Source of the DNA: Thermoplasmata archaeon
GTDB taxonomy: Archaea; Thermoplasmatota; Thermoplasmata; GCA-020350865
Length of the DNA stretch: 27,263 bases
Direction of reading: 5' to 3'
Assembly: GCA_020351895.1 (NCBI GenBank)
Contig: CP070672.1
Span: forward strand, 1,041,993 to 1,069,255
The stretch's first letter is position 1. Each line of letters starts with the position of its first letter. Both the position numbers and the translations under genes were made by a program. The notes below the pieces were generated by a model. It saw only the letters and a program-made list of their open reading frames with translations, ran no database searches and had not been told where the DNA came from. Positions 667 to 21,908 of this stretch are shown here, piece by piece.

Positions 667-1824
667 TTAAGGAGATTCCACGCGGATTACAACTGAATCA
701 GATTCCAGATCACCTGCTTGGGGGTCTACATAAACATCCCCAAAAACGGTAAGTCTAGCATCGTAATCAAAACCTTTAGTATAAGTCCATGAGGTCGTGG
801 GATCCTCAGTTTCCGTATCGATATCTCCATTGTCATCAAAGTCCCAAACATACAATGTTTTGTCCCCATCATTCCATGATGAACTCGCATCAAAAGATAC
901 AGTGAAAGTAGTGGATAAAGGTGGTGCATCTATGTTTGTAATTACAGCATTCGCTATGGGAAGGATATTCAAGAATATCAGAGTGGTCTCAGTAACCTCA
1001 TAAAAATCTGAATCGGATTTTACCCTTGAATTCTCAATTGTAACAGTGAACGAGTAATTTCCACTTTTAGTGAAAGTAAATTCATCTTCATATGTGGTCT
1101 CAGAAATGGGTTCCGAGGGTTCATTAGTTGTTATTGGATTATCATTATCAATGTTTCTTATCTCATCTACTCTTATCTTAGCATCTTCTGGATCAAGGGG
1201 CAGGAAAACCGTCATATTCAACTGACCGGTGCCATCGACCTTCCCCACCTCGGCTGTGATGTTCAAACTCTCGATTATGTGCTCTTCTTTGTATTCTTTG
1301 AGAGGGCTTTCTGCATCTTTGTATTTTATTCGGACGTAGTAGTTGCCATTACCATCCAAGAAGCTGTTGTAGGGGACAAATAATCTTCCTGTTCCTCCAT
1401 CATCGATGGATATTTTAGAAGAGTAGACGACATCATCATTGAATAATATTTCAAGATCACCTTTTCCAGCAATGGATGCAGAGCCTGAAGAACCGACTAA
1501 AACAGTCACTAAAAGTTCGTCTTCATGGCCTGGCTCGTCGCGGGTTAGGTCTACACTTATATCGGTGATATCTGTTCTAAGATATACGTATGCAAAAACC
1601 GCTACAATTAATAGAATAATAACCACTGAAATAACCAATATCCGTTTCATCCATGGAGATGGCTTCTTTTCCCTTGGCGGAGGTTGCATCGGTGGTGCAG
1701 CAACCGGTTCCTGCTGGGCTCCTGCGGCCCCTACTTCCTCGACGACCTCGACTTCCTCCACCTGGATTACATCATCATCCTCGATCTCATCATTCTCTGT
1801 CCCACCTATGTCGATATCAACCAT
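667..1824 (-). CDS. Membrane-anchored PKD-domain surface protein
   Basis: The 385-residue protein has no signal peptide. Residues 1-58 are a very acidic, then Ala/Pro-rich segment ending in basic residues (REKKPSPWMKR), followed by one TM helix at about 61-82. This suggests an N-in topology with about 300 residues outside the cell. The extracellular part is beta-rich with several N-glycosylation sequons (for example NMT and NYS). It ends in a PKD-like domain at about 290-383 with the typical VWDFDDNGD core. It is the last gene of a minus-strand cluster: its ATG lies 4 bp after the TGA of the upstream gene, whose last codons contain its ribosome binding site (AGGTGA). The role is unknown; PKD domains usually mediate cell-surface protein or glycan contacts. 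The acidic tail could bind a cytosolic partner, which is inference. Confidence 0.7.
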   Translation of the reverse strand: MVDIDIGGTENDEIEDDDVIQVEEVEVVEEVGAAGAQQEPVAAPPMQPPPREKKPSPWMKRILVISVVIILLIVAVFAYVYLRTDITDISVDLTRDEPGHEDELLVTVLVGSSGSASIAGKGDLEILFNDDVVYSSKISIDDGGTGRLFVPYNSFLDGNGNYYVRIKYKDAESPLKEYKEEHIIESLNITAEVGKVDGTGQLNMTVFLPLDPEDAKIRVDEIRNIDNDNPITTNEPSEPISETTYEDEFTFTKSGNYSFTVTIENSRVKSDSDFYEVTETTLIFLNILPIANAVITNIDAPPLSTTFTVSFDASSSWNDGDKTLYVWDFDDNGDIDTETEDPTTSWTYTKGFDYDARLTVFGDVYVDPQAGDLESDSVVIRVESP

Positions 1825-1828
1825 TCCA

Positions 1829-2818
1829 TCACCTCTTGCTCATTATAAGTTTACCATATAAATCTTTTGATTGGCCCAATGGAGAATTCGGTGTTTTTCC
1901 ACGGGACATTCCTTTCTTTCCTAAAATCACAAACACCAATCCCAAACCTATTAGGGCCAACATAACGCTGAATCCTGGGAAATTTAGACCCTTATCTGGA
2001 AAATAGGCACAAAGAGGGATATCTTGTCTAACCATAACAGCTGTTTCTTCGGAAGATTTAGACGTAACTCTAAGGTTGAACATTACAACTTTATTATTCT
2101 CTGGTTCCATTGTTTTAGGGACTTGAGCTTCCGCTACAATAGTTTTAGTTTCTCCCGCTTGAATAGAAGGATCAGATATTGTTTTTACCGACCATTGTTC
2201 ATTCATTAGATTTAATAGATTCATAAACTCTACCCTATAGGTATCTTCAGTATTACCGGTGTTGGTGATCCTCACGGGAAATCGTGCAGTCCATTCTTCA
2301 CTGATTTCCTGTGGTGGGGGTGAACACACTTCTAAGTCGTAAAAAGGTTTTATTTCAATGATTTGAGAAATAGAAGGGATCCCGTAATGAAGGCCACGCT
2401 GCATAAAATAACCTGAAACTGTTACCTGTGGCGTTATATTGAAGGCAGTACCTACTGGTACTCTAGTTGTGATCACATAAACTTTTGATTCTTCACTCCC
2501 CCCTGTACCACTAAAAATTAGGCGGGGATGAATCACAGAAGCACTCCCTGTCGTAGATTTCGCAAATAAAAACACCTTTACGGGTTCAGGCCCATATTTA
2601 ATGCATTTAACGGATCCATCAAATTTTACAATGGTTCTGTCATATTTTACATCATCAGAACTCCTTGGGGACACATCCACTTCGGGTGGAACTGGTTGAA
2701 TATCCAGAGTAACCTCGCTTGATTCGGATGCTTGTGCATGATCTGGCATCCAGAAGACAATTGATCCGAATGCCATCCACAATGCTATTAAAACGGGTAT
2801 TTTGGACCTACTTCTCAT
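1829..2818 (-). CDS. Secreted/anchored surface protein with PGF-type C-terminal anchor (paralogue 3 of 3)
   Basis: This 329-residue protein starts with a signal peptide (basic MRSRSK, hydrophobic core, AQA-SE cleavage region). It has two beta-sandwich-like halves. The first contains the block VTVSGYFMQRG shared by all three paralogues. The second, RITNTGNTEDTYRVEF, resembles archaeal NEW3/COG1470-type adhesion domains. The C-terminus has PGF at about 281-283, a hydrophobic helix and GKKG, like PGF-CTERM signals cut by archaeosortases, but about 28 further residues follow the helix. Its ATG overlaps the stop of the upstream paralogue (ATGA), with a GGGAGGG ribosome site inside that gene. The TGA is 4 bp before the next gene. 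The function is unknown beyond a cell-surface structural or adhesive role. Confidence 0.7.
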   Translation of the reverse strand: MRSRSKIPVLIALWMAFGSIVFWMPDHAQASESSEVTLDIQPVPPEVDVSPRSSDDVKYDRTIVKFDGSVKCIKYGPEPVKVFLFAKSTTGSASVIHPRLIFSGTGGSEESKVYVITTRVPVGTAFNITPQVTVSGYFMQRGLHYGIPSISQIIEIKPFYDLEVCSPPPQEISEEWTARFPVRITNTGNTEDTYRVEFMNLLNLMNEQWSVKTISDPSIQAGETKTIVAEAQVPKTMEPENNKVVMFNLRVTSKSSEETAVMVRQDIPLCAYFPDKGLNFPGFSVMLALIGLGLVFVILGKKGMSRGKTPNSPLGQSKDLYGKLIMSKR

Positions 2819-3768
2819 CCATTACCCTCCCTTTGTAAATATTTTGGACAGCCAGGTTTATTAACTGAATCCTTACCATGTTTCCTTCCTTTCTTTCCTA
2901 AAATCATGGACATCAATCCTATTCCGAGAAGTGCGAACATAGGGCTGAATCCTGGGATATACATGCCTTTTTCCCGGACATAAAACTCAAGATCATACCG
3001 TACAAGAGTAGCCGTTTCTTCTGAGTGTGTTGAAGTGATTCTTAAATGGAATCTTGTGACCTCGTTTCTCCAGATTGTCTGGGTTTGACGACCCTGTGCC
3101 CTTATTATAACGGTTTTGGTTTCACCTGCTTGAAAATCTGTATCTAAAACGGTATCCCTTACCCATTGCTTATCGCACAGCTCCTCACCATTTAAGTATT
3201 CGAACCTATAAGAGTCTTCAACATTACCTATATTCGTAATTTCCAATGGAAATTCAACATATTCACTAGGAGCTATTTCTTTTGGTAGTGGTGTAATCAC
3301 CTTTATCTTACAAAAGGATTCAATTTCTATACTCTGCCGAGCCGAGGGGATCTCATATTGGAACCCTTCTTGTATAAAATAGCCTGTGACAGTCACATTC
3401 GGTGTTTCCTCGCGTTTATAACATTTAGGCATTCTTGTGATCATGGTAAAATTATATGTTTGTTCAGTTCCTTTCGATCCATTGAAGACAAAACAAGAAG
3501 GATCTACATAGGCGCTGCCAATATCCGATTTGGCCCGAAGATATACCTTGACGAGATCGGTTTCATTTATAGAGCAACTGATTGTACCATTTATTGAAGC
3601 TAACCCTACACCTTGGGGTGAAACATCCGCTTTTGGGAGTGTATCTTGAAGTTTGAGGTTGATAGTGTCTGATGAGGAAGCTGAAGCTTGCTCTGATGCC
3701 AAATTTGGCATTGAAAAGAGCAGAATTGAGATGAACAGCGCCACCTTTAGTGCATATTGAAGTTTCAT
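2815..3768 (-). CDS. Secreted/anchored surface protein with PGF-type C-terminal anchor (paralogue 2 of 3)
   Basis: A paralogue of its two neighbours. I prefer the ATG at 3768 (317 residues) over the in-frame GTG at 3777, because GAGGG sits 8 bases before the ATG whereas it abuts the GTG. There is a signal peptide (MKLQYALKVALFISILLF, cleavage near ASA). The shared block VTVTGYFIQEG is followed by a NEW3-like half with EITNIGNVEDSYRFEYL. The C-terminus has PGF at about 272-274, a hydrophobic segment and GKKGRKHGKD, then about 20 extra residues. It follows the first paralogue by 45 bp and overlaps the next by 4 bp, so the three are probably co-transcribed. It has more cysteines than the other copies, including one in the extra C-terminal tail (KPGCPKY). 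The function is unknown. Confidence 0.7.
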   Translation of the reverse strand: MKLQYALKVALFISILLFSMPNLASEQASASSSDTINLKLQDTLPKADVSPQGVGLASINGTISCSINETDLVKVYLRAKSDIGSAYVDPSCFVFNGSKGTEQTYNFTMITRMPKCYKREETPNVTVTGYFIQEGFQYEIPSARQSIEIESFCKIKVITPLPKEIAPSEYVEFPLEITNIGNVEDSYRFEYLNGEELCDKQWVRDTVLDTDFQAGETKTVIIRAQGRQTQTIWRNEVTRFHLRITSTHSEETATLVRYDLEFYVREKGMYIPGFSPMFALLGIGLMSMILGKKGRKHGKDSVNKPGCPKYLQREGNG

Positions 3769-3813
3769 ATTAAACACCCTCGCCTATAGGCAGTAAAGAT
3801 ATTTTCTATAGCC

Positions 3814-4707
3814 TTAGCCAGCAAATCGTCTCTTGCCCATAATTAACGCGACTATTCCTATTCCCATAATTGCGAACACAGGACTGAATCCTGGGATATA
3901 AATACCCTTTTGTCGAACATAAAGAGGTACATCGTACCTTACCATAATGGCAGTTTCCTCGGACTGGATGGAAGTTATTCTCAGATTGAAAGGCGTAACC
4001 TCGTTTCTCCAGATGGTCCAGGTTTGAGGAGCCTGGGCGCTAACGGTGAGGGTCTTTATTTCATCCTCTATGAAGGTCTTATCAGTGATTGTTGCCACAG
4101 TCCACTGATTGTCTTGGAGTTTTTCCAGATTCAAAAACTCGAACCTGTAAGTATCCTCCGAATTTCCTACATTTTGGATTTTTATTGGGAAGTGCACGAA
4201 CTCTCCGGCGCCTATTTCCTGGGGTGGTGGTGTGTCCACCTGGAGCTTATAGTAAGGTTCAATTTCTATGATCTGTGTCACGGATGAGGCGTCGTATTGG
4301 AGCCCACCTTGTACGAAATAACCTGATACTGTAACCTGTGGTGTTGCCATGAAAGTATAGCCCTGAGGCACTCTGGTTGTTACAGCGAATGATTTTGTTT
4401 CTTCACTTCCTCCTGCACCTGTAAAGACCAAGCTGGGAGGAATCACAGAGGCGCCACCGGTATCTGATTGCGCCTGTAAAAATACCTTAACCTGGTCGGG
4501 CCCGTACTTCGTGCAGCTGACTGTCCCGTCAAATTTGATGATACCGGAGCTACCAGGAGAAACGTCCACTTTTGGGGGTTCTCCCTGCAGATTCAGGATA
4601 ACCACGGTTAGCGGTGATGCTTCAGACTCTTGGGGAATAAAAATAAGCATTGTACTTAGCATGGTCAAAGTTAGCAATACCACCGCTATAATCGAAAGTT
4701 TTTTCAT
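3814..4707 (-). CDS. Secreted/anchored surface protein with PGF-type C-terminal anchor (paralogue 1 of 3)
   Basis: The open frame extends to 4914, but the start is taken at 4707: the ATG there is preceded by GAGGTG at good spacing and opens a clean signal peptide (MKKLSIIAVVLLTLTML, cleavage near SEA-SP). The upstream 69 codons read like non-coding sequence. The mature part has the shared VTVSGYFVQGG block and a NEW3-like domain (KIQNVGNSEDTYRFEF). The C-terminus is the canonical member of the trio: PGF at 272-274, a hydrophobic helix, then GKRRFAG and stop, as expected for a PGF-CTERM/archaeosortase substrate. It is the first gene of the cluster, with a TATA-like box at 4747-4756 on the minus strand. 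The exact ligand or role is unknown. Confidence 0.75.
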   Translation of the reverse strand: MKKLSIIAVVLLTLTMLSTMLIFIPQESEASPLTVVILNLQGEPPKVDVSPGSSGIIKFDGTVSCTKYGPDQVKVFLQAQSDTGGASVIPPSLVFTGAGGSEETKSFAVTTRVPQGYTFMATPQVTVSGYFVQGGLQYDASSVTQIIEIEPYYKLQVDTPPPQEIGAGEFVHFPIKIQNVGNSEDTYRFEFLNLEKLQDNQWTVATITDKTFIEDEIKTLTVSAQAPQTWTIWRNEVTPFNLRITSIQSEETAIMVRYDVPLYVRQKGIYIPGFSPVFAIMGIGIVALIMGKRRFAG

Positions 4708-4746
4708 TCTATGCACCTCAACATGATTCCGTAAAGTTTTTTTCCC

Positions 4747-4756
4747 TATATAATTC
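4747..4756 (-). promoter_or_regulatory. TATA-box promoter of the surface-protein cluster
   Basis: Read on the minus strand, GAATTATATAGGG is a good archaeal TATA box. A start site about 25 bases downstream would fall near 4722-4728 and leave a leader of about 15-20 bases with the GAGGTG ribosome site (4714-4719). Confidence 0.5.
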
Positions 4757-5081
4757 TTTTTGTCTGCAAAGGTGCGTTTTCCGACAGTTTGGAGGTGATT
4801 TTCTACCATTTCATGTTTCTGCATATTTTCACCACAAAAAGAGGTTATGTCACCCAAGTATATTAAGGAGTTTGGTGGAGTATTTTGACTATTATTAGGG
4901 ATTTTTTGATCCAAAGTTGGGTTTTTTCACAGATTTTGGAGGGTATATGAGGGGGGTTACAGTTAAAAAGTGAAATAATCAAAGATTTCATGATTATTAA
5001 GGTCTTATAAGAGAATTAAGATACCCATGTATATTATGTTACCGAGGAAAATACTGGGAAAGGATTAAATACCACAATGGG

Positions 5082-5146: not shown

Positions 5147-5488
5147 ATGGTTGAAATTCCTCCAGATAAAAAATCAGACCAGGAAAAAAACCCAGAAGAT
5201 GTTTTGATGCAATCAAAGATCGAACTAAACCAGCCAATAACGGCTCTTGAAGCTTCGGATGAGATAATTTCTATTTTTTGTGAGCTTCATGGGGGGGTGG
5301 AAGCCGCGATGCCCATGATCGCATACCAATTTAAAAAGGCGAATGTTGATTTTGCCAATCCCACGAAAGAGGGATTAAAGAAGGTGGCCCAAGGTCTCGT
5401 GAATGTCACGGAATTTCTTAAGGGAAAGTTGGTGGCAGAGAAAGAGGAGAAGCGATTCAACCATTTAATAAAGATGATATCGAAATAA
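5147..5488 (+). CDS. Small helical protein of unknown function
   Basis: A 113-residue cytosolic protein with no signal peptide or TM segment; I do not recognise the family. The first 25 residues are charged and probably disordered (PPDKKSDQEKNPED). Residues about 35-113 look all-helical (ASDEIISIFCELHGGVEAAMP and onward), ending in a Lys/Glu-rich amphipathic helix. The start is supported by GGTGATG at 5136-5142. It lies 67 bp before the giant receptor gene on the same strand, so it could be part of that unit, though an AT-rich gap with its own possible TATA element (AATATATTTC near 5502) separates them. A role as a receptor-associated adaptor would be speculation. Confidence 0.6.
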   Translation: MVEIPPDKKSDQEKNPEDVLMQSKIELNQPITALEASDEIISIFCELHGGVEAAMPMIAYQFKKANVDFANPTKEGLKKVAQGLVNVTEFLKGKLVAEKEEKRFNHLIKMISK

Positions 5489-5555
5489 AATCTAGGAGCT
5501 GAATATATTTCTTAAAAATGGATATAGATTAGGAAAAACATCCATCGTGGTATAA

Positions 5556-8500
5556 ATGGGCAGAAATATTAGGGTTAAGAACTTATTCGCTTTGATTCTG
5601 GTTTTTCTACTGTTTTTACAGCTTACTGTTTTCATTGATAAGCCAAAGGGGATTGTTTCTGCTGAGCCGAACCTCGAAGATAACCTCGACTACACAGTTA
5701 CCGCGACCTGGGATTTCAATGATCCAAGTGATTATTTGTTAAATAATACGTCCATGAGAAATGGAGAGGTTGAGCTTACCTTAGGGAAATACTGGTGGAA
5801 TCAAACCGATGAGATGGACTTTACTACAGGAAATTTCATCAATACAACAACCACTCCGCAAGGAGAGGTAACCCTGATATCCCAGATGAACGCAACGAAT
5901 TTCGTTAAAACAGGAGATTTCTCTTCAAGTCAAAACTGGACATTCACACCAAGTGCCAACATCTCATCATCCTACAATGGTGCAGGTGAAAACGCGGAAT
6001 TGAGTTACAGTTATTTTGTATCTGAGTTAGCATATTTGAAACCTGCTAATGCTGATGATGGAACTGTTACATACGTTCCTCCCTCATCATACAGTATGAA
6101 TGATACTGGACAATATACTGAAGTTGGGTATTCGTTCGAAGGAGGATTTCCAAACTATAAGAGGTCATTTTTCTATTTCGATCTTAGCACTATTCCACTT
6201 TCTGCTATCATAACAAATGTGACATTTTACGCAAAAATTGAAAATGCATCACCAAGCAGCAACCATCTAATCGATATACATGTTTTAGAGGTGTCAAAGG
6301 CTGATTCAGATGCCACTGAGCTTTACACTGACTGTGGGAATGGTACGCTTTACATTTACGATGATAACTCTTTGAGTAGCGGCGCGGACCTTGTATATCA
6401 TGAGTGGAATCTAGGGGCTCAAGCAATCTCAGATGTGCAAAACTATCTTGATGATGGTTGGTTTGGAATAGGGATTCACGAAGAAGCTGATGACGGCTTG
6501 ATAGCAACAATAAGTGCCAGCGAGAGTGGAAATTCACCACAGCTTAATGTTTCCTATTTAACTTCTCCACCGGCAACGTTCGATGAAACCGCCTATGTAA
6601 ATCAAACCCTTTCTAAACCTAAGGTCACACCAAACTTTCCCCAAGCTGTTAATCTCAGTTTTAATTTCAGTGTGGAAAAATACCTAAGTGCACTTGGAGA
6701 ACTCATGGTCCAAATCGACAATGCTACTGTTTGGAGCCAACCAATAGCCTTAAATCCTATATGGACACCCGTCTATGTTGATGGAGGAATTTATATGAAC
6801 GAATCTAGGGACTACAAAATCAGCCTTCAACTTAATCTAATCGTGAACTCTGGTACGGTGGTCGATTGTCTCGTCAAATTTGACGATGTGAGGATCACAG
6901 CAGTTGATTTTTTCCCAAAGGGAAATTACACTTCTATGGAATACGATGTAGGCTCTTTGGTAATCTGGGATGAGATGAGTTGGAATTTTGAGGCACCCCC
7001 GGAAAGTGTATTTACAATAAGAACCCGTACCTCAAATGGGACATTCTGGGGTGATTGGTCCTCAGAATATACCAACAATCTAGGTGAGCAGATAATACCC
7101 CAAATTGACCAAAAGATTCAATACACTGTGAACCTGAGCACGGTAAATTTTACAAGAATACCAGTTCTATATGATGTGAATATATCGTATGAAAAATACT
7201 TCAATAACGGTACAATTGAGATGAAAGAGGATTTCAAACCCGACAAAATCCGAGATTGGGGTACGTTCAAGTGGGAAGAGCAAACCAATGGGCAGAATAT
7301 AACTTATCTTTACTCCATTGATTCTGGTGCAAATTGGTCCTTGGTGCCTTTAGATGGGAATCTATCAGATATTAGCACCACCCAAGGTAAGATCAGGTTT
7401 AAAGCGAATTTTACCACATATAACACCACAAAGACTCCCACATTGTTAAAATGGAACTTGACCTATGAAATCAGTGAACTCCCTACCCTATACGGAAGGG
7501 TGGATCCTGGATTTGGATATATTACGACTTGGTTCAATTTTACAGTTCGGTATTCAGACCCAGAGAATGAAGCTCCATTGAACATCACATTGAATATCAC
7601 CCAGGGGACATCGCATATAGGGAATTGGCAAATGTATCCTGTGAACAATACTGACTTAAACTACACAGATGGAAAATGGTATTTCTTCAATGAAACAAAC
7701 TTTACAAGAGGGACCAATTATTCATTCCATTTCGCGGCACAGGATCCAAATTTCGTGTGGAGCCTAGGTCAAATCAGGGATGGGCCCTATGTATTGAACT
7801 CTCCACCAAGAATCACCACTAGCGATGTTCAGGGAGCTGAAGGTGGAAAATTATATTATGTTGACTATGAGGCAGAAGATCTCGAGGATGAAGGTAACCT
7901 GAGTTGGTATTTGGAGACCGATGCCACGTGGCTGGCTATCAATGGTACCACGGGTAACCTAAGCGGTACTCCTCCAAGTGGTGATAAAGGTACATATTGG
8001 GTGAATGTTACTGTCCGTGATAGTCACGGTGGCCTCGATAAAACGAGCTTCAATTTATTGGTGGGTGATACTATTCCTCCAATCGCTGATGCTGGGGATG
8101 ATGGCGAGGTTTATGAAGATGTACCCTACCAGTTTGATGGTTCCAACTCGACAGATAATATTGGCATTGAAAATTTCACCTGGTATTTTGGAGATGGAAG
8201 CGTAGCCTACGGTGAAAATGCCTCTCACATGTATACAAAAAGCGGCCATTATATTGTCGTGCTTATCGTTAAGGACCCATTGAATAATGAGGACATGGAT
8301 ATAATCAACATTACGGTGATAAATAACCCCCCAATCGCCGACGCTGGGCCCGATAGGAACGTGGAGGAGGGGGAGACGGTATTTCTTGATGGGAGCAACT
8401 CTTATGACACACCCTCTGACAATGACTCTCTCATTTTTCTGTGGGATTTTGACGGTGATGGTGAGTTCGATGATGGAGTTGGACCCTTAGCAAACTATAC

Positions 8501-10337
8501 TTGGCATGATCAAACCGCTATTAAAGTAAGACTCAAAGTCATGGATAATGACGGTGATTATAATATAGATGAGGTCAATGTGACGGTACGAAACGTTGAT
8601 CCAGTGGTGGACATAGAAGATTTTTATGCAGGTGAGAAAGGTTCTGAGATTATCATCATTGCCTCGTTTTATGATCCAGGAAATGATAAACTAGAATTTC
8701 GCTGGGATTGGGAAAATGATGGGGTATGGGATACAGGAAGAACCACTGATTTCATTGTTAACCATACCTGGGGGCATGAAGGAGTTTACACGATTTTGGT
8801 TGAGGTATGGGATGGAGTGAGTAATGGGACGGACACCGCCACTGTGGAGATCACCAAACGAAATTCCCCTCCAGAGATTAGTGACATAGGTAGCAGGCAG
8901 TTAAGATTTAATTCCTCATACACAATCGATCTCGCCCAATTCATCCATGATGAAGACACACCATTATCATCCATAATTGTTACAACCTCCGATCCAGAGT
9001 ATATTACAATTGATGGGTTAAACATAACCCTGAGGTATCCCGAGGAAATGATAGGAGAGAGTGTGGATGTGACGGTGACGGTATCGGATGGGATCTTATT
9101 TGACAGCGAAATTTTTACTGTTGTAATCACTCAGAACTATCCTCCAACTATGAAAGAGCCATTTCCAAATGTCGAATTTGAAGAGGATGGGGAATCTCTG
9201 GATGCATTCAATTTGAATGACCATTTTGAGGACAATGATGGGGATCCCCTTGAATTCGATTTTGTCGTCTCAAATCCGAACTTAATCGTTATATTGGATG
9301 ATGATGGTACAGTGACGTTCAAAGCCTCGCCCAATTGGGCTGGAAGTGCCAATGTGAGATTCCTAGCAGAGGATCCCAGAGGAGCCTTCGCAGATGGAAG
9401 CCTTCTTGTCACTGTCACACATGTAAATGATCCACCCATAATTTTGGGCCAGATCAAGTTCACGAAAATACCTGAAAACGAGAATTGGAGTATAGATCTA
9501 GACGACCATTTCTTAGATTTGGACAACTTCAACCTTACTTTCACTTGTAATTACGAGGAAATTAAGATAGACCCAATCACACATGAAGCGGTTTGGGTTC
9601 CTGGAGGCAAGAAGGAACTAAAAGGTGTAAAGTTCACTGCAAGCGATGGAGAGCACAGCGTCAGTCTAGATCCAATCGACTTGGGCGTTATAGAACCTGA
9701 GCCTTTCAATTGGCTTTATATAGTTCTTGCATTGATTGTAGGGGCCTTTATCTTTGGAGCATATAGAGAAATACGCTACAGATACACCATAGAAGAGGTA
9801 TTTCTGGTGGACAATGCGGGTGTATTGTTGGTGCATATATCAAGGGGAGAATCAAAAGCCATTGACGCGAAATTGGTGAGTGGAATGCTAACGGCGGTTC
9901 AGGAGTTCGTTAAAGATTCATTCATGGGGAATAATGAACAGGGGGATATGAAAATAGATGAGGGAGCCCTTGGTAAACTGGAGTACGGTGACTTTCAGAT
10001 AGTAATCGAAAGGGGGAGCTACGCCTTCCTTTCCGCGGTTATTTCTGGTTATGACAACAAGAGGTTGCGTAAGAGAATGAGGGATGTTGTGGAGGAATTC
10101 GAGTCGAAATATTCATCCGTGCTTGCGGATTGGGATGGAGATATGGACAAATTCGCAGGCACCGAGAAAATAGTGGGAAGGCTCATCAAAGGATCTTCCA
10201 TGATAAAAGAGATTTCTGATGATGCGGAGTGTGGAATCGAAGAGAGTAATATAGAGGGTTACACCGAACCTCCCGCAGAAGAACTGCCGCAGGGTGATTT
10301 CGGGGATGTGCCCATGGAAAATGATGAAATAAGGTAA
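5556..10337 (+). CDS. Giant receptor-like surface protein: DNRLRE-like/Ig-like/PKD ectodomain, one TM, cytosolic longin/roadblock-like domain
   Basis: The 1593-residue protein has a signal peptide (about 1-36). Approximate layout: a DNRLRE-like beta domain at 156-335; beta-sandwich segments to about 750; a He_PIG-type Ig domain at 751-839 with LAINGTTGNLSGTPP; three PKD repeats at 840-925, 925-1017 and 1015-1100 (PPIADAGPDRNV, LWDFDGDGEF, RWDWENDG); and three cadherin/Ig-like modules at about 1106-1380 (NDPPIILG). There are very many N-glycosylation sequons. A TM helix at about 1386-1406 is followed by RYRYTIEEVFLVDNAGVLLV. Residues 1412-1535 alternate strands and helices like a roadblock/longin fold, ending in an acidic tail. 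It is probably an adhesion or ligand receptor reporting to the cytosol. The Ras-like GTPase and V4R genes follow on the same strand. Domain names beyond PKD are by eye. Confidence 0.75.
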   Translation: MGRNIRVKNLFALILVFLLFLQLTVFIDKPKGIVSAEPNLEDNLDYTVTATWDFNDPSDYLLNNTSMRNGEVELTLGKYWWNQTDEMDFTTGNFINTTTTPQGEVTLISQMNATNFVKTGDFSSSQNWTFTPSANISSSYNGAGENAELSYSYFVSELAYLKPANADDGTVTYVPPSSYSMNDTGQYTEVGYSFEGGFPNYKRSFFYFDLSTIPLSAIITNVTFYAKIENASPSSNHLIDIHVLEVSKADSDATELYTDCGNGTLYIYDDNSLSSGADLVYHEWNLGAQAISDVQNYLDDGWFGIGIHEEADDGLIATISASESGNSPQLNVSYLTSPPATFDETAYVNQTLSKPKVTPNFPQAVNLSFNFSVEKYLSALGELMVQIDNATVWSQPIALNPIWTPVYVDGGIYMNESRDYKISLQLNLIVNSGTVVDCLVKFDDVRITAVDFFPKGNYTSMEYDVGSLVIWDEMSWNFEAPPESVFTIRTRTSNGTFWGDWSSEYTNNLGEQIIPQIDQKIQYTVNLSTVNFTRIPVLYDVNISYEKYFNNGTIEMKEDFKPDKIRDWGTFKWEEQTNGQNITYLYSIDSGANWSLVPLDGNLSDISTTQGKIRFKANFTTYNTTKTPTLLKWNLTYEISELPTLYGRVDPGFGYITTWFNFTVRYSDPENEAPLNITLNITQGTSHIGNWQMYPVNNTDLNYTDGKWYFFNETNFTRGTNYSFHFAAQDPNFVWSLGQIRDGPYVLNSPPRITTSDVQGAEGGKLYYVDYEAEDLEDEGNLSWYLETDATWLAINGTTGNLSGTPPSGDKGTYWVNVTVRDSHGGLDKTSFNLLVGDTIPPIADAGDDGEVYEDVPYQFDGSNSTDNIGIENFTWYFGDGSVAYGENASHMYTKSGHYIVVLIVKDPLNNEDMDIINITVINNPPIADAGPDRNVEEGETVFLDGSNSYDTPSDNDSLIFLWDFDGDGEFDDGVGPLANYTWHDQTAIKVRLKVMDNDGDYNIDEVNVTVRNVDPVVDIEDFYAGEKGSEIIIIASFYDPGNDKLEFRWDWENDGVWDTGRTTDFIVNHTWGHEGVYTILVEVWDGVSNGTDTATVEITKRNSPPEISDIGSRQLRFNSSYTIDLAQFIHDEDTPLSSIIVTTSDPEYITIDGLNITLRYPEEMIGESVDVTVTVSDGILFDSEIFTVVITQNYPPTMKEPFPNVEFEEDGESLDAFNLNDHFEDNDGDPLEFDFVVSNPNLIVILDDDGTVTFKASPNWAGSANVRFLAEDPRGAFADGSLLVTVTHVNDPPIILGQIKFTKIPENENWSIDLDDHFLDLDNFNLTFTCNYEEIKIDPITHEAVWVPGGKKELKGVKFTASDGEHSVSLDPIDLGVIEPEPFNWLYIVLALIVGAFIFGAYREIRYRYTIEEVFLVDNAGVLLVHISRGESKAIDAKLVSGMLTAVQEFVKDSFMGNNEQGDMKIDEGALGKLEYGDFQIVIERGSYAFLSAVISGYDNKRLRKRMRDVVEEFESKYSSVLADWDGDMDKFAGTEKIVGRLIKGSSMIKEISDDAECGIEESNIEGYTEPPAEELPQGDFGDVPMENDEIR

Positions 10338-10348
10338 TGGAGGTGTGA

Positions 10349-10450
10349 ATGGATACGAGGCTTTGTAAGAGTAACATAAAAACCCAAGTGAACCTGAAAA
10401 CATCCATTTTGCGGTTATGTTGCCCTTTCAAGAAAAAGACATATCTTTAG
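10349..10450 (+). CDS. Possible 33-residue microprotein
   Basis: A short frame starts 11 bases after the receptor stop, behind a strong ribosome site (GGAGGTG at 10339-10345). The product would have 33 residues, basic, with three cysteines including a CC pair (LRLCCPFKKK). The strong site in an otherwise empty gap is the only support; it could equally be a relic. The family is unknown. Confidence 0.25.
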   Translation: MDTRLCKSNIKTQVNLKTSILRLCCPFKKKTYL

Positions 10451-10524
10451 GAATGAAGAAATGGCCTTGATAACAACTTCGTAAAGGATATATATTATAA
10501 TAATATAACGAAATCCAAATCAAA

Positions 10525-10536
10525 TTTATATATAAA
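10525..10536 (+). promoter_or_regulatory. TATA-box promoter of the GTPase gene
   Basis: TTTATATATAAA, preceded by the purine-rich CCAAATCAAA as a possible BRE, predicts a start near 10560. This leaves a short leader with GAGGTT (10575-10580) before the ATG at 10588. A second AT-rich block (10487-10508) lies upstream. This suggests that the GTPase and V4R genes can be transcribed independently of the receptor. Confidence 0.55.
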
Positions 10537-10587
10537 TGGATACCGAAAATTAAAAAGGAATCAAGAGATAACAAGAGGTTGTCGTAA

Positions 10588-11136
10588 ATGGAAAGAAAAC
10601 GATTTCAAAGAAAGATATGCCTTCTTGGTGATGGCGCCGTGGGAAAAACGAGCCTCATCAGGAAATATGTACTTGATAAATTCGATGATAAATATCTTCC
10701 CACCATCGGTACAAAAGTTTCCAGAAAGGAGGTTGTGATTCCGTTTCAAAAAGAGGATATAGTCGTTGATCTAACCATGATAATTTGGGATATCGTCGGC
10801 CAGAAGGCATATCAAAAGCTACGTAGAATGTACTATCAAGGTGCCAGCGGTGCCCTGGTCGTATGCGATGTTACGAGGAAGGAAACTCTCGATAACATGA
10901 AGGAATGGACGCTTTCCCTTTTTCAGGTTGCCAATCCAGTTCCAGTTCTTTTTTTGGCAAATAAGTCCGATTTAATCCATAAAGCCGAATTTAAACCAAC
11001 CGATTTGGAAGAGATAGCATCCGAATTTAAGTCACCATACTTTTACACCAGTGCTAAGAGCGGGGCGAATGTAAACAGAGCGTTTCAGAGATTGGGTGAA
11101 TTGATGATAAATCCCCATATTAAGGGCAAGGTATAA
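10588..11136 (+). CDS. Ras-like small GTPase
   Basis: The 182-residue protein has all five G motifs: G1 GDGAVGKTS (14-22), G2 Thr in PTIGT (39), G3 WDIVGQ (67-72, keeping the catalytic Gln position), G4 NKSD (125-128) and G5 SAKSG (155-159). It would switch between GDP and GTP forms in the cytosol. The sequence around switch II (LRRMYYQGASGALVVCDVT) is strikingly Rab/Ras-like. There is no C-terminal cysteine for lipid attachment and no membrane segment, so membrane recruitment would need a partner. It has its own promoter, lies 250 bp after the receptor gene and 19 bp before the V4R gene. The receptor's cytosolic longin/roadblock-like domain is an obvious candidate partner, because roadblock proteins act on small GTPases (MglB on MglA). 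The pairing is inferred from context only. Confidence 0.85.
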   Translation: MERKRFQRKICLLGDGAVGKTSLIRKYVLDKFDDKYLPTIGTKVSRKEVVIPFQKEDIVVDLTMIIWDIVGQKAYQKLRRMYYQGASGALVVCDVTRKETLDNMKEWTLSLFQVANPVPVLFLANKSDLIHKAEFKPTDLEEIASEFKSPYFYTSAKSGANVNRAFQRLGELMINPHIKGKV

Positions 11137-11155
11137 TCTAGATGGTGAAGAAAAA

Positions 11156-11638
11156 ATGGAAGAATCTAATTCCCCAAAAAAAGACCAATTCAAACCCCCT
11201 GTGGCATTCTTTCTAATGCCCATCGACATTCTGAAGGGAGTTCATGAAGAACTCTCCGAATTACTGGGAGCAGATGTTGCCTCTAATATTATATATAACT
11301 GTGGTCTACGTAGTGGAAAGAATATAGTGAAAGACATGGATATCAACTTCCCTGATTTGAAGACACTATGTAACACCCTTCCTGAGCTATGGTTGCAGAT
11401 GGGTATGGGCGTTTTCAGCATAGAGAAGCTTAACACCAACAGACTTGTGCTTAGATGTGAAGAGTCAAATGAGGCATCGGCTTTAGGATATACTGGTAGG
11501 AAATCATGCGATCTCACCAGTGGTTATCTTGCAGGCATGATATCGACGATTTTCGGGAAAAAGTTCAATTGCGAAGAAAGGGAGTGCATGTCAAAAGGGG
11601 ACCCTTTTTGCATTTTCGTTCTTTTTGCAGAAAAATGA
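11156..11638 (+). CDS. V4R-domain protein (4-vinyl reductase/Bet3-like fold)
   Basis: A 160-residue cytosolic protein made almost entirely of a V4R domain (about 20-158). The diagnostic end is CEERECMSKGDPFCIF, the V4R pattern of spaced cysteines before a final strand, with Cys at 118, 139, 144 and 152 that could bind metal or act in redox sensing. The family is a small-ligand-binding domain found in transcriptional regulators such as DmpR/XylR and near chlorophyll enzymes. It belongs to the same superfamily as Bet3 of the TRAPP complex, which activates Rab GTPases. Here it stands alone, 19 bp after the Ras-like GTPase and probably co-transcribed with it. The start is supported by GGTGA at 11144-11148. 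What it binds is unknown. Confidence 0.75.
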   Translation: MEESNSPKKDQFKPPVAFFLMPIDILKGVHEELSELLGADVASNIIYNCGLRSGKNIVKDMDINFPDLKTLCNTLPELWLQMGMGVFSIEKLNTNRLVLRCEESNEASALGYTGRKSCDLTSGYLAGMISTIFGKKFNCEERECMSKGDPFCIFVLFAEK

Positions 11639-15190: not shown

Positions 15191-15240
15191 TTGGATGCAT
15201 GATATTATCGTATTGTCGCGGCAAAGAGGGGCATAATAGA

Positions 15241-17565
15241 ATGAAAAAGGTGGAGCAAATAGCGGTTATTCTGATGATCCTATTGAGCTGTCTAGTAGGG
15301 GTTTTTATAATATCATCACCAAAAGTTGGTGCCTACACCCCCCACGATCCAATACTCATTGATGGGGATGCCGATTTCGCTGCCCAGGCTGCTGCTGAAG
15401 GCTGGCCAGGGGATGGGACCGTGGGGAATCCATATATTATCGAGGGGTATGAGATTAATACGTCTTTTGCTAACGGCATCGAAATAAGGTCGACAACCGT
15501 TTATTTTGTTATAAGAAATACACTTGTTTTTGATCGTAATTGGTATGTCTCTCAATCTTTTAGTAACATTAATCTCTACAATGTCAGAAATGCAACAATA
15601 GAGAATTGTACAATAAAAAATAACTTTTGTGGAATATTTCTTAATTCTTCCAGTGAGATCAACATATTTGGGAATAATATAACAGACAATCATGAGATGG
15701 GATTATATTTCGAGAATTCCAGTGGAAATAATATCATTAATAACAATATCACTTATCTGGTGGGTACCGGTATGTATTTTTATCTTTCTAATGGGAATTA
15801 CATTTCAGGCAACAATATATCTTCTCAATGGGGTGGTCATGCCATACACCTTTATTATTCTGTTCAAAATTCCTTTGTCGGTAACACAATGTTGAGAAAT
15901 GGAATATATATCGAAGGAGACCTTATTGAACATTGGAGTACCAATAATATCGATATTTCAAATACGATCGAAGGCAAACCAGTGTACTTTTGGAGGAATC
16001 AAACTGTAGGAAAAATACCCCATGGAGCCGGAAAAGTGATTCTTATCAATTGTACAAACATCACAATAGAGAACCAGGAAATCGAATATGCCTCATCAGG
16101 TGTTTCACTCGTATTCTCATCATTTTGCAACATTAAAAATAATTCTGTTTCCAAGAATTATCCATATGGCATCTATCTCTATCAATCGAGTGGAAACCTT
16201 ATTACAGGTAACAATGCTTCTTATCATGGGAACTTCGGTATCTACATAAATAATTCCAATGAGAACAATATCACTAGCAACACTGTCTTAAGCAACGGAG
16301 ATGGTGGCATATCTCTCGATTATTCCAACGGGAACAATATCGCGAACAACAAGGTATTAAACAATCGGGAGGGGGGTATATATATTGGCTCTTCACATTG
16401 GAACAATATCTCTAACAATGAAATTTCAAATTTCGATACATGGCACGATTCAAGCGGCATAACTCTCATTAACTCCAGTATTAACAAAATAATCGATAAC
16501 AATTTATCAGGCTATTATTATGGTATTCATTTACAGGATTGCAAGGAGAATATCATCCAAAACAATAATGTAACAAACGGTTATCAATCAATTTCTTCCA
16601 ATGGCATTTATCTCGATCATTCCAATGGGAATGACATCATTGATAATAATATCTTGAATTTTGGAGGGAATGGTCTATCTCTCGAATCCTCGAATTGGAA
16701 CGATATTAATGGCAATTATGTTTCAAATTCAAAATACGGTTCTGGCATACAGCTTCTGTATTCTAATGGGAACAACCTTACTAACAACAAAGCTTTTTCG
16801 AACGAACAAAGTGGCTTTTTCATTGGCATTTCCAACTGGACTAATATTGCAGGAAATGTAGCTTTTTCGAATAACATGGGAGGTATTAGTCTTTCAGGTT
16901 GCAGTAATAACACAGTCTCCAATAATAACATTTCAAATGATTTACAAGATGGGATAGGTTTAATTTCTTCGAGCAATAATGTTATTAGAGAAAATAATAT
17001 CTCAAAAAATAATAGATATGGAATTTATCTTCTTCTTGATTGCAACGAAAACCATATCAATAATAATATTGTATCCAATAATAATGAATCTGGTATTTTT
17101 ATACAATTGTCAAACCGAAACAACATTATTGGTAATAATATATCAATGAACGAGATTGGCATCTTACTTTGGAACTCAACTGAAAATATATTCCATCATA
17201 ATAACATCTTCAACAATAGAGAACAATTTGATCAAAAATATGATCATATCAACACATGGGACGATGGCGGTGGTGAAGGCAACTACTGGGGTGATTACTA
17301 TGGTTTTGATGAAGATGGCGACGGTGTAGGGGACACTGGTCTTCCGCATCATGGAGTAGATTATCACCCATTAACAAATAGACAGGGAACCTCTGATACT
17401 GAGATACTACAACCTATTTTGATAATAATGATAGGATTATCCATCATTATACTGTTAATATTATTAACGAAAAAAACAAAACCTACTAAAAAGGAACCTT
17501 CAAAGAAGCTCCAGGATGAATCATGGATTAAAGGAAAACCCCCGGGAATAAAAGGATTGAGATAG
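15241..17565 (+). CDS. NosD-like right-handed beta-helix surface protein (first of a tandem pair)
   Basis: The ATG at 15241 is chosen over an in-frame ATG at 15199 because GAGGGG (15226-15231) precedes it and it opens a signal peptide (MKKVEQIAVILMILLSCL, cleavage near VGA-YT). The 774-residue protein has an N-terminal motif DADFAAQAAAEGWPGDGT followed by NPYIIEGYEI. More than twenty imperfect beta-helix coils follow, of the form SSGNNIINNNIT (PbH1/NosD repeats). A conserved cap carries GNYWGDYYGFDEDGDGVGD, whose Asp cluster resembles a calcium site. A C-terminal TM helix (about 721-741) and a Lys-rich cytosolic end follow. The repeats are crowded with N-glycosylation sequons. It is probably a surface protein that binds or processes polysaccharide; the NosD copper role is unlikely outside a nos cluster. 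The paralogue starts 1 bp after its stop. Confidence 0.8.
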   Translation: MKKVEQIAVILMILLSCLVGVFIISSPKVGAYTPHDPILIDGDADFAAQAAAEGWPGDGTVGNPYIIEGYEINTSFANGIEIRSTTVYFVIRNTLVFDRNWYVSQSFSNINLYNVRNATIENCTIKNNFCGIFLNSSSEINIFGNNITDNHEMGLYFENSSGNNIINNNITYLVGTGMYFYLSNGNYISGNNISSQWGGHAIHLYYSVQNSFVGNTMLRNGIYIEGDLIEHWSTNNIDISNTIEGKPVYFWRNQTVGKIPHGAGKVILINCTNITIENQEIEYASSGVSLVFSSFCNIKNNSVSKNYPYGIYLYQSSGNLITGNNASYHGNFGIYINNSNENNITSNTVLSNGDGGISLDYSNGNNIANNKVLNNREGGIYIGSSHWNNISNNEISNFDTWHDSSGITLINSSINKIIDNNLSGYYYGIHLQDCKENIIQNNNVTNGYQSISSNGIYLDHSNGNDIIDNNILNFGGNGLSLESSNWNDINGNYVSNSKYGSGIQLLYSNGNNLTNNKAFSNEQSGFFIGISNWTNIAGNVAFSNNMGGISLSGCSNNTVSNNNISNDLQDGIGLISSSNNVIRENNISKNNRYGIYLLLDCNENHINNNIVSNNNESGIFIQLSNRNNIIGNNISMNEIGILLWNSTENIFHHNNIFNNREQFDQKYDHINTWDDGGGEGNYWGDYYGFDEDGDGVGDTGLPHHGVDYHPLTNRQGTSDTEILQPILIIMIGLSIIILLILLTKKTKPTKKEPSKKLQDESWIKGKPPGIKGLR

Positions 17566-17566
17566 A

Positions 17567-19216
17567 ATGAAAAAGATAATCCACTTAGTAGTTATTCTAC
17601 TGCTTATTGGCAGCATTTTTGCTGGAGTGTTTATCATAATCTCTTCTCCCCAAGTGAGCGCATATACAGCTCACGAACCCATAAAAATAGTAGGGGATGC
17701 CGATTTCTCTGCTCAGGCTGCTGCTGAAGGCTGGCCTGGGAATGGGACTGCTGGGAATCCATATATTATTGAGGGATATGAGATTGATGCAGAGTATGTA
17801 AATGGTATTGATATAACATCGACATCTGTTCATTTTATAATAAGGGATTCCTTATTGATGGGAAATGCATATCGGGCGATTTCTCTCATCAATGTTATGA
17901 ATGCAACAATATACAACTGCACAATAAAATATTGGAATTATGGATTTTATCTTGAATCTTCAAGTGGGAACAATATTACCGAGAATAAGGTTCTAAACAT
18001 ATCTTTTTATAGCATAAATCTCTGGAATTCAGATGACAATATCATCGTCCGTAATTATGTCTCAAACAGCCGTTATGGAATTAATCTTGATTCTTCACAC
18101 GAGAATAATATCATAAATAACTCCATTTTCTTGAATCAGTACGACGGCTTATATATTCAAAATTCAAGGAATAATAAGATTTCGGACAATACTATAATAA
18201 ATAATGGAGGAGGCATTATTAACCTTTATTCCTCAGGTGACAACAACCTTACAGGTAATATTATCTCGGATAATGGTAGGTACGGCATCTATCTGAGTTT
18301 TTCAGAGAGGATCACTATCAAAAATAACAACATATCAAATAATGAAAAGGGTTTATATTTTGATCGCTCTGATTATGCTAACATTCAGGGCAACATAATC
18401 TCAAGCAACGATTATGGTATCGAATTGATTTTTTCGAGAGGTATCAATATTTCAGCCAACACGATGATAGGATGCGGAATTGGTATCTCTGGTGATACCA
18501 TTAATTATTGGTATCCATACGAAATTGATTCCACAAATACTTTAAACGGTAAAATCATCTACTATTGGAAGGATCGAGTTGGGGGAACAATTCCTCCTGA
18601 TGCAGGTCAGGTAATTCTTGTGAATTGCACGAATGTAAAAGTAGAGAACCAGGAACTCACTCATGGAACAATCGGTATTTTATTGGGTTATTCTTTTAAT
18701 ATCCATGTCACAGGAAATAACATATCCTCTAACAGTGAATATGGTATTTATTTCCATCGTTCCGAAAGAAACGATATCGTTGGTAATACCATCTCGGATA
18801 ACGGATGTGGCATTTTTTTAAAGAGTTCAATTGGTAATATATTTCACCATAATAACATCGTCAGTAATGATGAGCAGTTAAATTGTTCATATCATCTAGA
18901 AAATGTCTGGGACAATAGAAATGGTAAAGGGAATTACTGGAGTGACTATAATGGCACCGATGTGAATAATGACGGTGTCGGAGATACCGATTTACCACAT
19001 TGGGGGGTGGAATTTCATCCACTTATGAATCCCACAGATATCCAAGAAAATGGATACCCTCCTTTTCCTTCTTTATTGTTTATTATCTTCATATTTTCAA
19101 TTTTAATTTTAATATCACTAATCTTGATTTTACCCCTGCGAAAGAAAAAAAAGTCCTCTATTAAGTCTCCCGAAGCAGAGAATCAAGATACCGACAAAAA
19201 TCAACCGAAATTTTAA
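17567..19216 (+). CDS. NosD-like right-handed beta-helix surface protein (second of a tandem pair)
   Basis: A 549-residue paralogue of the preceding gene, separated from it by one base, so almost certainly co-transcribed and translationally coupled. It has a signal peptide (MKKIIHLVVILLLIGSIFAG, cleavage near VSA-YT). The leader motif DADFSAQAAAEGWPGNGT with NPYIIEGYEI is nearly identical to the first copy. A shorter set of beta-helix coils (SSGNNITENKV type) follows. Both copies contain an interruption in the middle (TLNGKIIYYWKDRVGGTIP here, TIEGKPVYFWRNQTVGKIP in the first). A cap with GNYWSDYNGTDVNNDGVGD, a TM helix at about 498-525 and a Lys-rich tail end the protein. The size difference comes from repeat number, suggesting duplication followed by coil loss or gain. 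The function is inferred as cell-surface carbohydrate interaction, not shown. Confidence 0.8.
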   Translation: MKKIIHLVVILLLIGSIFAGVFIIISSPQVSAYTAHEPIKIVGDADFSAQAAAEGWPGNGTAGNPYIIEGYEIDAEYVNGIDITSTSVHFIIRDSLLMGNAYRAISLINVMNATIYNCTIKYWNYGFYLESSSGNNITENKVLNISFYSINLWNSDDNIIVRNYVSNSRYGINLDSSHENNIINNSIFLNQYDGLYIQNSRNNKISDNTIINNGGGIINLYSSGDNNLTGNIISDNGRYGIYLSFSERITIKNNNISNNEKGLYFDRSDYANIQGNIISSNDYGIELIFSRGINISANTMIGCGIGISGDTINYWYPYEIDSTNTLNGKIIYYWKDRVGGTIPPDAGQVILVNCTNVKVENQELTHGTIGILLGYSFNIHVTGNNISSNSEYGIYFHRSERNDIVGNTISDNGCGIFLKSSIGNIFHHNNIVSNDEQLNCSYHLENVWDNRNGKGNYWSDYNGTDVNNDGVGDTDLPHWGVEFHPLMNPTDIQENGYPPFPSLLFIIFIFSILILISLILILPLRKKKKSSIKSPEAENQDTDKNQPKF

Positions 19217-20445: not shown

Positions 20446-21000
20446 TCATTTTCCTATAGATTTCCCATATTGGTAACCCTTCTCATATGCCCCTTCATTG
20501 AGCTTCTCTGTTCCTTTTGGAACCGAAGATAAAATCGCGTTTTTCATGGCTTCATAACTCACGACATCTGTTATGGCGGTGAAGAATCCCAGCATCACGA
20601 TGTTGGCCACGATTTTCTTACCCAGCTCTTCTGCAAATCTCGTTGCAGGAATCTCGTACATTTTCCATTTGTTCTTCTTTATCTGATTTTTATTGATTTC
20701 CACAAGATCGCTATCCACAAGAAGAGCATTGCCTTTACCTAGATGTCTTGTATAGGTACCATATGCCTCCTGGCTCATGACCACAAGGATTTTAACATCC
20801 TTGAGGTAGGGATAATCTATCTTCACATCAGAAATAACGATGTCCGCGCTGCATGCACCGCCTCTTGCCTCTGGCCCATAACTTTGAGTGAGCACGGCTT
20901 CCTTTTTATCGAAAATTGATGCTGCCTTTCCCAGGATGTAGCCAGACAGTACGATTCCTTGGCCTCCAAAGCCGCACAGCTTGACGTCCGTCCTGCTCAC
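20446..21000 (-). CDS. korC: 2-oxoacid:ferredoxin oxidoreductase, gamma subunit (probably 2-oxoglutarate)
   Basis: A 184-residue gamma subunit with the opening GFGGQGIVLSG (10-20) and the family block QSYGPEARGGACSADIVIS. It completes the four-subunit enzyme that oxidatively decarboxylates a 2-oxoacid, joins the product to CoA and passes two electrons to ferredoxin. It is the last gene of the operon and overlaps korB by 4 bp (ATGA). Four separate subunits and the neighbouring alpha sequence favour 2-oxoglutarate, but a branched-chain or indolepyruvate-like substrate is not excluded. The 6-bp gap to the convergent metK means that any terminators must lie inside the genes. Confidence 0.88.
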   Translation of the reverse strand: MSRTDVKLCGFGGQGIVLSGYILGKAASIFDKKEAVLTQSYGPEARGGACSADIVISDVKIDYPYLKDVKILVVMSQEAYGTYTRHLGKGNALLVDSDLVEINKNQIKKNKWKMYEIPATRFAEELGKKIVANIVMLGFFTAITDVVSYEAMKNAILSSVPKGTEKLNEGAYEKGYQYGKSIGK

Positions 21001-21908
21001 TTCTTATCACCTATCCTTTTTGTAACCACATCCAATATGCCCTCCCTTTGCATATCGAGGAAAGTTGGTTTTTCCTCATCCTTGAACTTACCACACAGTA
21101 TGTCACCGCCTAAGGTAAGCTCGGCTTCGGTGGGATCGGCACCATGCTTTATCACGCTGTGCTCCTTATAGTACTTCATTTCCTGTAGACCAGTTCCCAG
21201 CCTGTTTCTTCTTCCGTATGCCGTTGGACACGGGGCTATGATTTCAATGAAACAAAACCCTTTCTTTTGTAAAGCTTCCACCATGGCACTTTTCAGTCTT
21301 CTCGCATGTAAAGTTGTCCAACGGGCAACATAAACGGCTCCACTTGCAACTGCCACATGAGGCAAATTGAATGCGGGCTCGAAATTCCCGTAGGGTGTGG
21401 TGGTTGTTCTCGCCCTAAGATGTGTGGTAGGTCCCACCTGCCCCCCTGTCATGCCGTAATTGAAGTTGTTCACGCAGAATACGTTAATGTCAACATTTCT
21501 TCTTGCTGCGTGTATGAAATGGTTTCCACCTATGGCAAATAGGTCCCCGTCTCCTGAGAAGACGGTGACTGTAAGCTCTGGATTTCCCAGTTTCAATCCT
21601 GTAGCGAATGGAATGGGTCTTCCGTGAGTTGTGTGATAAGAGTCCACTTTCAGATAGCCAGCAATCCTGCCAGTGCATCCTATACCTGAAACAACGCAGT
21701 TTGAATCCAGTGGAATACCGCTCTCTTCCAGGGCACCGATAAAGCATGTCATGGCAATGCCCAGACCGCAGGCACTGCACCAGATATGGGGGATCCTGCC
21801 AGGCCGAAGGTACTTGTCCATTGGGTGTGCCCCATAGTCTCCCCATTTCCACTCCTCGTGCTCCAGGTAATGCGGCTTGAATTTATCCCTGCTTCGTTGG
21901 ATATCCAT
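20997..21908 (-). CDS. korB: 2-oxoacid:ferredoxin oxidoreductase, beta subunit (TPP-binding)
   Basis: The 303-residue beta subunit carries the thiamine-diphosphate motif SGDGDLFAIGGNHFIHAARR continuing to NNFNYGMTGGQ. The cluster ligands are visible as Cys 44 and 47 (IWCSACGLG) and Cys 78 (SGIGCTGR); the fourth would be further on. It forms the active site with the alpha subunit. About 30 residues precede the usual family start (DKYLRPGRIPHIWC), so Met 30 is a possible alternative start; the one given has only a weak ribosome site. The gene follows korA by 14 bp and overlaps korC by 4 bp. Confidence 0.88.
   Translation of the reverse strand: MDIQRSRDKFKPHYLEHEEWKWGDYGAHPMDKYLRPGRIPHIWCSACGLGIAMTCFIGALEESGIPLDSNCVVSGIGCTGRIAGYLKVDSYHTTHGRPIPFATGLKLGNPELTVTVFSGDGDLFAIGGNHFIHAARRNVDINVFCVNNFNYGMTGGQVGPTTHLRARTTTTPYGNFEPAFNLPHVAVASGAVYVARWTTLHARRLKSAMVEALQKKGFCFIEIIAPCPTAYGRRNRLGTGLQEMKYYKEHSVIKHGADPTEAELTLGGDILCGKFKDEEKPTFLDMQREGILDVVTKRIGDKK

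Follow-up and report, generated by a model that had tools for sequence, protein, structure and literature searches.

Is a receptor-like protein of a Thermoplasmata archaeon coupled to the small GTPase encoded beside it? The question arises from positions 5147..11638 of a 27,263-nucleotide (nt) stretch of contig CP070672.1 (assembly GCA_020351895.1; positions 1,041,993 to 1,069,255 of the forward strand), hereafter the window, in which four plus-strand open reading frames in a row encoded products of 113, 1593, 182 and 160 amino acids (aa). A first-pass annotation, made from the sequence alone, had read these as a small helical protein, a receptor with a longin/roadblock-like tail, a Ras-like GTPase with all G motifs and a V4R protein, consecutive on one strand. 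The V4R family is a proposed source of a core component of TRAPP in eukaryotes. The gene arrangement was confirmed as real and, because it was seen again in other genomes, goes beyond chance. Pairing of the GTPase and V4R genes proved strongly conserved, and the longin domain tracked GTPases across genomes. The locus probably encodes a receptor-coupled small-GTPase module, and the findings suggest an undescribed membrane signalling system.

Conserved pairing of GTPase and V4R genes

Genome sampling was confined to one phylum, and the sampled genomes may be incomplete. V4R matches at E≤1e-3 were found in 118 of 300 genomes of the class, and GTPase matches in 178. Pairs were counted at all listed V4R places down to 2.8e-7 (82 places: L001, L002 and L067-L146) and in the window, giving 83; in a uniform six-frame count, the V4R subfamily was set at E≤1e-15 and comprised 63 genes, the remaining 20 being weaker matches. 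The strongest result of the analysis was that 58 of the 63 subfamily genes had a GTPase gene directly upstream on the same strand, with 2-76 nt between the matched domains. Among the weaker matches, an upstream GTPase was present in 3/20 (L129, L132 and L139), all of them V4R-DUF835 genes. DUF835 was encoded in the same frame in 51 of the 63 subfamily genes, 48 of those paired; the window V4R protein lacks this domain, which most of its paired relatives carry. A second sample of 243 genomes of the phylum contained 92 with a V4R match at 1e-10, and an adjacent GTPase was present in all seven new genomes with full-length matches, upstream in six (G304, G310, G315, G323, G331 and G336) and downstream in one (G337).

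Several variants of the pair were observed. Two tandem GTPase-V4R pairs each occurred in G315 (L214) and G304 (L215), and four tandem GTPase genes preceded a V4R gene on one strand at L083:7345-10048 (G003). GTPase-less V4R genes stood in matching order at L103:4970-13531 (G002) and L085:1-10001 (G001), where a P-loop gene (235 aa), a gene of 366-367 aa and the V4R gene were followed by a protein of 1796 or 2281 aa (cut) whose N-terminus bears a hydrophobic stretch.

A tree was built of 129 GTPase domains (60 linked to V4R, 38 fused to a helical domain described below and 31 others). V4R-linked GTPases required 5 label changes against a shuffled mean of 43.0, and a single clade of them was not rejected (p-AU 0.409). 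Fifty-one of the 60 fell into one group (SH-aLRT, the Shimodaira-Hasegawa-like approximate likelihood ratio test, 84), those of the window, L001, L002 and L082 into another (85), and five elsewhere. As these four grouped apart from the main 51, the window's pair may have arisen independently.

Recurrence and spacing of the four genes

Contigs of the sampled genomes were scanned with the window GTPase, and two loci were found. L001, on the bin33 chromosome of a complete genome, kept the window order of a 113-aa gene, a 1635-aa protein, the GTPase and the V4R protein; L002 (bin396) encoded a 1652-aa receptor, the GTPase and the V4R protein with no 113-aa gene in front. At a second locus in the L001 genome (L206 in G001), the GTPase, the V4R protein and a 3915-aa longin protein were encoded in succession on one strand, the last with a membrane helix and a longin domain followed by about 880 further residues. 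A check of the neighbourhood in other genomes, proposed at the outset, thus recovered the whole order once, the order without the small gene once and a reshuffled version once, and since the order recurs elsewhere it is not confined to this genome. Protein searches returned 41 rows for the V4R protein and 42 for the small protein (the window's own included), and six longest-contig sizes were common to both lists (52634, 28233, 22323, 21057, 13416 and 10501), which suggests shared metagenome contigs.

Gaps of 67 nt (small gene to receptor), 250 nt (receptor to GTPase) and 19 nt (GTPase to V4R) separated the four genes, so only the GTPase and V4R genes are tightly spaced. The 250-nt gap (10338..10587, no strand) was AT-rich with a TATA-like run and may hold a separate promoter for the GTPase-V4R pair; given this gap and the 67-nt one, a single transcript for the whole row is at most a possibility. 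Genes for a two-part transketolase and a transaldolase came next after the V4R gene in a Pfam scan of the window. These mark the end of the module, because L001 has genes of matching size and order at this place and L002 does not.

Domains of the four proteins

The 182-aa GTPase (10588..11136, plus strand) matched Ras PF00071 at 1.9e-38, and its best PDB chain was the Thorarchaeota Rab 7ezb (1.1e-27). Its translation contained GDGAVGKTS, the T in PTIGTKV, DIVGQ with the catalytic Gln of switch II, NKSD and SAK, which we take to be motifs G1-G5; with the Ras domain, these motifs and the switch II Gln, it is a Rab-like member of the Ras superfamily. Eukaryotic Rab proteins have a C-terminal cysteine for prenylation. 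The window GTPase ends in PHIKGKV, has no C-terminal Cys and so is not a Rab in the eukaryotic sense; without a lipidation cysteine, it would need a membrane-fixed partner, such as the receptor tail, to be held at the membrane.

The 160-aa V4R protein (11156..11638, plus strand) matched V4R PF02830 at 3.9e-17 and had both glycine pairs of the family, G50/G54 and G123/G127. Residues C118, E141, C144 and C152 aligned with MopR C155, E178, C181 and C189 (positions counted on the alignment), which we take to be the zinc ligands of MopR; judged by residues only, the protein has the Cys-Glu-Cys-Cys pattern of a putative zinc site of the MopR/DmpR subgroup. Both glycine pairs and all four residues were invariant in 8 diverse members, and the PDB relatives found by profile were MopR (2.3e-8), MJ1460 (1.2e-6), the phenol regulator chain 5fru and CapR. 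The glycine-pair motif was described by Podar and colleagues (PMC2253512). In the part of PMC7264223 consulted, 5fru is named PoxR and the zinc ligands of DmpR are printed as Cys151, Glu172, Cys177 and Cys185. Membership in TRAPPC3/Bet3 was considered and, at the sequence level, rejected, as there was no PF04051 match at E≤1 and the sequence was nearer to the bacterial/archaeal V4R proteins MopR and MJ1460 than to TRAPPC3.

The 1593-aa receptor-like protein (5556..10337, plus strand) had an N-terminal hydrophobic stretch, an Ig/PKD-type ectodomain and one membrane helix ahead of a tail. Pfam placed He_PIG, PKD_4 (8.5e-37) and Big_9 repeats at 7806..9413 (plus strand, about residues 751-1286), and the helix was predicted from the sequence and its hydropathy at 9708..9773 (plus strand, about residues 1385-1406). 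It directly precedes the tail, with basic residues coming after it; given these residues, the single helix and the N-terminal hydrophobic stretch, the tail should be cytosolic. In the model, the tail domain (9777..10211, plus strand) had the element order b-b-a-b-b-b-a-a, which is longin topology. No Pfam match to the tail was found at E≤1, Roadblock/LC7 PF03259 included, and longins ranked above MglB (Foldseek E 6.9e-4) in fold matches. Of the longin/roadblock-like tail described in the first-pass annotation, the longin-like fold therefore stood and the Roadblock match did not; the Ras-like GTPase, the V4R domain and the helical small protein were all borne out. Three tail homologues (P0153, P0163 and P0181) had a Roadblock domain ahead of, and separate from, the longin-like domain, and a membrane helix lay directly ahead of the longin domain in 15 of the 20 best loci.

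Longin domains also occurred in other protein contexts. At L180:7418-13043, two neighbouring proteins of 936-937 aa with an internal longin domain (residues 98-230) were encoded between GTPase-helical fusions, the first with AAA_16 before the longin domain and TPR repeats after it; these are a STAND-like ATPase version of the system. Single open frames encoded 2181 aa with three longin matches at G001:C1:555373-558798 and 1373 aa with two at G002:C1:1468919-1470820.

The 113-aa protein (5147..5488, plus strand) was a free form of a domain that is commoner as the C-terminal part of GTPase proteins of 270-320 aa. It had no Pfam match at E≤1 and no NCBIfam match, and its AlphaFold 2 (AF2) model (predicted local distance difference test, pLDDT, 83.4) consisted of helices only; no convincing fold match was found, and the fold was not recognised. 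Its profile matched residues 193-251 of a 273-aa GTPase protein (E 4e-10) and the C-terminal part of GTPase proteins of 272-293 aa. Matches were found in 77 of the 300 class genomes, with most of those listed lying in frames of 270-320 aa and a few in free proteins. G001 and G002 had longin receptors with arrays of 3-6 tandem GTPases directly beside them, and the helical domain was detected in every GTPase of L172, L187 and L191 and in 5/6 of L170. Because the domain is fused to GTPases, and GTPase arrays with it stand beside longin receptors, the small protein is a GTPase-associated domain and not an unrelated neighbour.

Co-occurrence of longin domains and GTPases

Across the 300 class genomes, 132 had both a GTPase (E≤1e-20) and a longin match (E≤1e-8), 11 had the GTPase only, one the longin only and 156 neither. 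All 56 genomes with a V4R match at E≤1e-11 had a GTPase and 53 had a longin match; in two of the 56 (G090 and G211), the V4R genes were of the unpaired kind. Genomes with a single GTPase (n=40) had one longin match in 30 cases, none in eight and two in two. Copy numbers of GTPases and longins correlated (Spearman 0.90).

A candidate mechanism and its alternatives

The function that we favour, a receptor-coupled GTPase module, is argued from domain content, conservation of the pair, co-occurrence and the recognition of the small protein as a free form of the GTPase-fused domain. The ectodomain would sense or adhere outside the cell. The cytosolic longin domain, probably dimeric and fixed to the membrane, would act as a platform that retains the non-lipidated Rab-like GTPase there. 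As the dedicated partner of the GTPase, the V4R protein, probably a zinc-stabilised dimer with a likely hydrophobic pocket, would most likely be a ligand-sensitive regulator of its nucleotide state, acting together with the longin domain broadly as in TRAPP. A possible role for the 113-aa protein is to supply in trans the helical domain that other receptor-adjacent GTPases carry fused. Whether Thermoplasmata have, more broadly, a large undescribed class of transmembrane receptors (with STAND-like ATPases) that signal via cytosolic longin domains to Rab-like GTPases, a dedicated V4R-GTPase pair forming the core, is in our estimate evenly balanced.

Several observations weigh against the module. 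The receptor, GTPase and V4R genes were seen side by side in a narrow group only. The earlier interpretation was borne out in part: its domain calls and longin-like tail held, the gene order recurred and the GTPase-V4R pairing was conserved, and the GTPase switch and ancestral-type arrangement that it suggested stay candidate readings. Five of the 63 subfamily V4R genes had no GTPase (L085, L103, L104, L125 and L090, the last at a contig edge). The longin assignment of the tail is by fold only, its sequence matching no solved longin significantly, and the last 40 tail residues were poorly modelled; some longin matches were STAND-like ATPases with TPR repeats, not receptors. At a GTPase cut-off of E≤1e-35, genomes with both numbered 118, with GTPase only 3, with longin only 15 and with neither 164, which leaves 15 longin genomes lacking a GTPase. 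Copy numbers of GTPases and longins were counted among the matches listed, at most 10-11 per genome, and co-occurrence p-values overstate independence because the genomes are related. A longin gene lay within 2 kb on the same strand of 6/34 GTPases in G001 and 5/26 in G002; adjacency as high was reached in 47-68 of 5000 shuffles in G001 and 4-36 in G002, a significant but moderate signal that includes the locus that led to these two genomes. Receptor-GTPase adjacency appears local, since all 18 further longin loci with top scores (13 receptor-type and 5 ATPase-type, several ending at contig edges) lacked a GTPase within 1.5 kb.

Alternatively, the GTPase and V4R protein might form their own cytosolic metabolite-sensing switch, with longin receptors serving other GTPases and the neighbouring receptor being incidental. 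The pair is kept at loci without an adjacent longin gene, the only longin match of the single-GTPase genomes G164, G200 and G256 lies on another contig than the V4R gene, no sign of membrane attachment was seen in the DUF835 fused to 51/63 V4R genes, and the 250-nt gap with its possible promoter precedes the GTPase. We nevertheless regard this as unlikely, as a longin receptor adjoins the pair in the window, L001, L002 and, with the genes rearranged, L206, and as 30 of 40 single-GTPase genomes have exactly one longin match and 53 of 56 V4R genomes have one. It is less probable still that the longin tail is a GTPase-activating platform of the MglB kind with the V4R protein as downstream effector: the fold of the tail also matches MglB and the three homologues noted above carry a Roadblock domain, but longins rank above MglB and the window tail itself has no Roadblock Pfam match.

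Both an archaeal small GTPase and the link of V4R/Bet3 to traffic proposed in PMC2253512 would fit a vesicle-forming system of ArvA type. Neither ArvB (DUF2073) nor ArvC (DUF2072) was present among 19 window proteins scanned with Pfam, however, and the ArvB family PF09846 was found in 4/13 genomes searched, lying more than 1 Mb from the locus in G001 and G002, and not in nine other searched genomes with the pair (among them G078, G164, G038 and G070), which makes such a system very improbable. Least credible is that the genes are chance or housekeeping neighbours. The transketolase and transaldolase genes that follow in the window, with genes of the same size and order in L001, would favour this, but the pair count contradicts it, the pair being kept across dozens of genomes while its flanking genes vary, and no such genes follow the pair in L002. 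The receptor-coupled module remains our preferred explanation.

Neighbouring genes in the window

Of four minus-strand genes in a run at 667-4914, one encoded a PKD domain and two had sub-cut-off PGF-CTERM matches. Two neighbouring long right-handed beta-helix (NosD-like) proteins were encoded at 15199-19216. The minus-strand cluster at 20446-27114, a probable electron-transfer operon, encoded 2-oxoacid:ferredoxin oxidoreductase subunits and FlpD/ferredoxin, HdrA-like and TfrB/HdrC-like proteins.

Comparison with known systems

Single Rab-like proteins were noted in a Thermoplasmatales archaeon and Aciduliprofundum by Surkont and Pereira-Leal, and our literature search found no report of GTPase-V4R pairing or longin-tailed receptors. 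According to one Asgard study (PMC10933270), matching GTPases to regulators from the genome is hard, as their genes lie apart. In the present sample, gene order itself links a Rab-like GTPase in dozens of genomes with a V4R protein, which shares a superfamily with TRAPPC3, and longin-protein numbers rise and fall with GTPases, which offers concrete pairs for purification. The finding bears on whether longin/V4R/GTPase cooperation predates eukaryotes, and suggests a class of receptors that may let these archaea sense their environment.

Like MglA/MglB and the Streptomyces conservons, the locus has a small GTPase gene near a regulator of longin/roadblock kind (PMC4316618, as far as the part consulted goes), but here the longin domain belongs to a membrane protein and the partner is a V4R protein. 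Conservon membership was rejected, as the 19 Pfam-scanned window proteins included neither a histidine kinase nor an MglB-type protein. ArvA/ArvB/ArvC (PMC10927574) likewise comprise an archaeal small GTPase with conserved neighbour genes; the neighbours differ, with the ArvB family located elsewhere or not found, and membership (a GTPase, then ArvB and ArvC) was rejected on the Pfam scan given above. The V4R sensor domains of MopR, DmpR and PoxR share the zinc-ligand pattern (PMC7264223, in the same part), whereas the V4R protein here has no AAA+ or DNA-binding part and is paired with a GTPase.

Asgard Rab-like, roadblock, longin and TRAPPC3 proteins have the same folds (PMC10933270), and among solved structures the GTPase matches the Thor Rab best. 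Thor TRAPPC3 binds zinc and has cavities, and as a rule MK-D1 GTPase genes share no operon with genes for RB, longin or TRAPPC3 proteins (PMC10933270), whereas the GTPase-V4R pair here is nearly always adjacent. In TRAPP, the Rab site is formed mainly by the longin C4, and Bet3 and C1 contribute less to it (PMC10152722, in the part consulted). Like the TRAPP core (TRAPPC1/C4 longins and TRAPPC3/Bet3) with Rab1, the window combines a longin fold, a protein of the V4R/Bet3 superfamily and a Rab-like GTPase, here in one gene group. Unlike in TRAPP, the longin domain here forms the tail of a receptor-like protein, the V4R protein is MopR-like by sequence with a zinc-site pattern and not TRAPPC3-like, and the GTPase lacks a lipid anchor; the likeness is an analogy and not proof of membership. 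If the broader reading, a whole class of receptors signalling through longin domains, is right, these archaea would possess a prokaryotic receptor-to-GTPase pathway that uses both folds of the TRAPP active site, outside the Asgard archaea.

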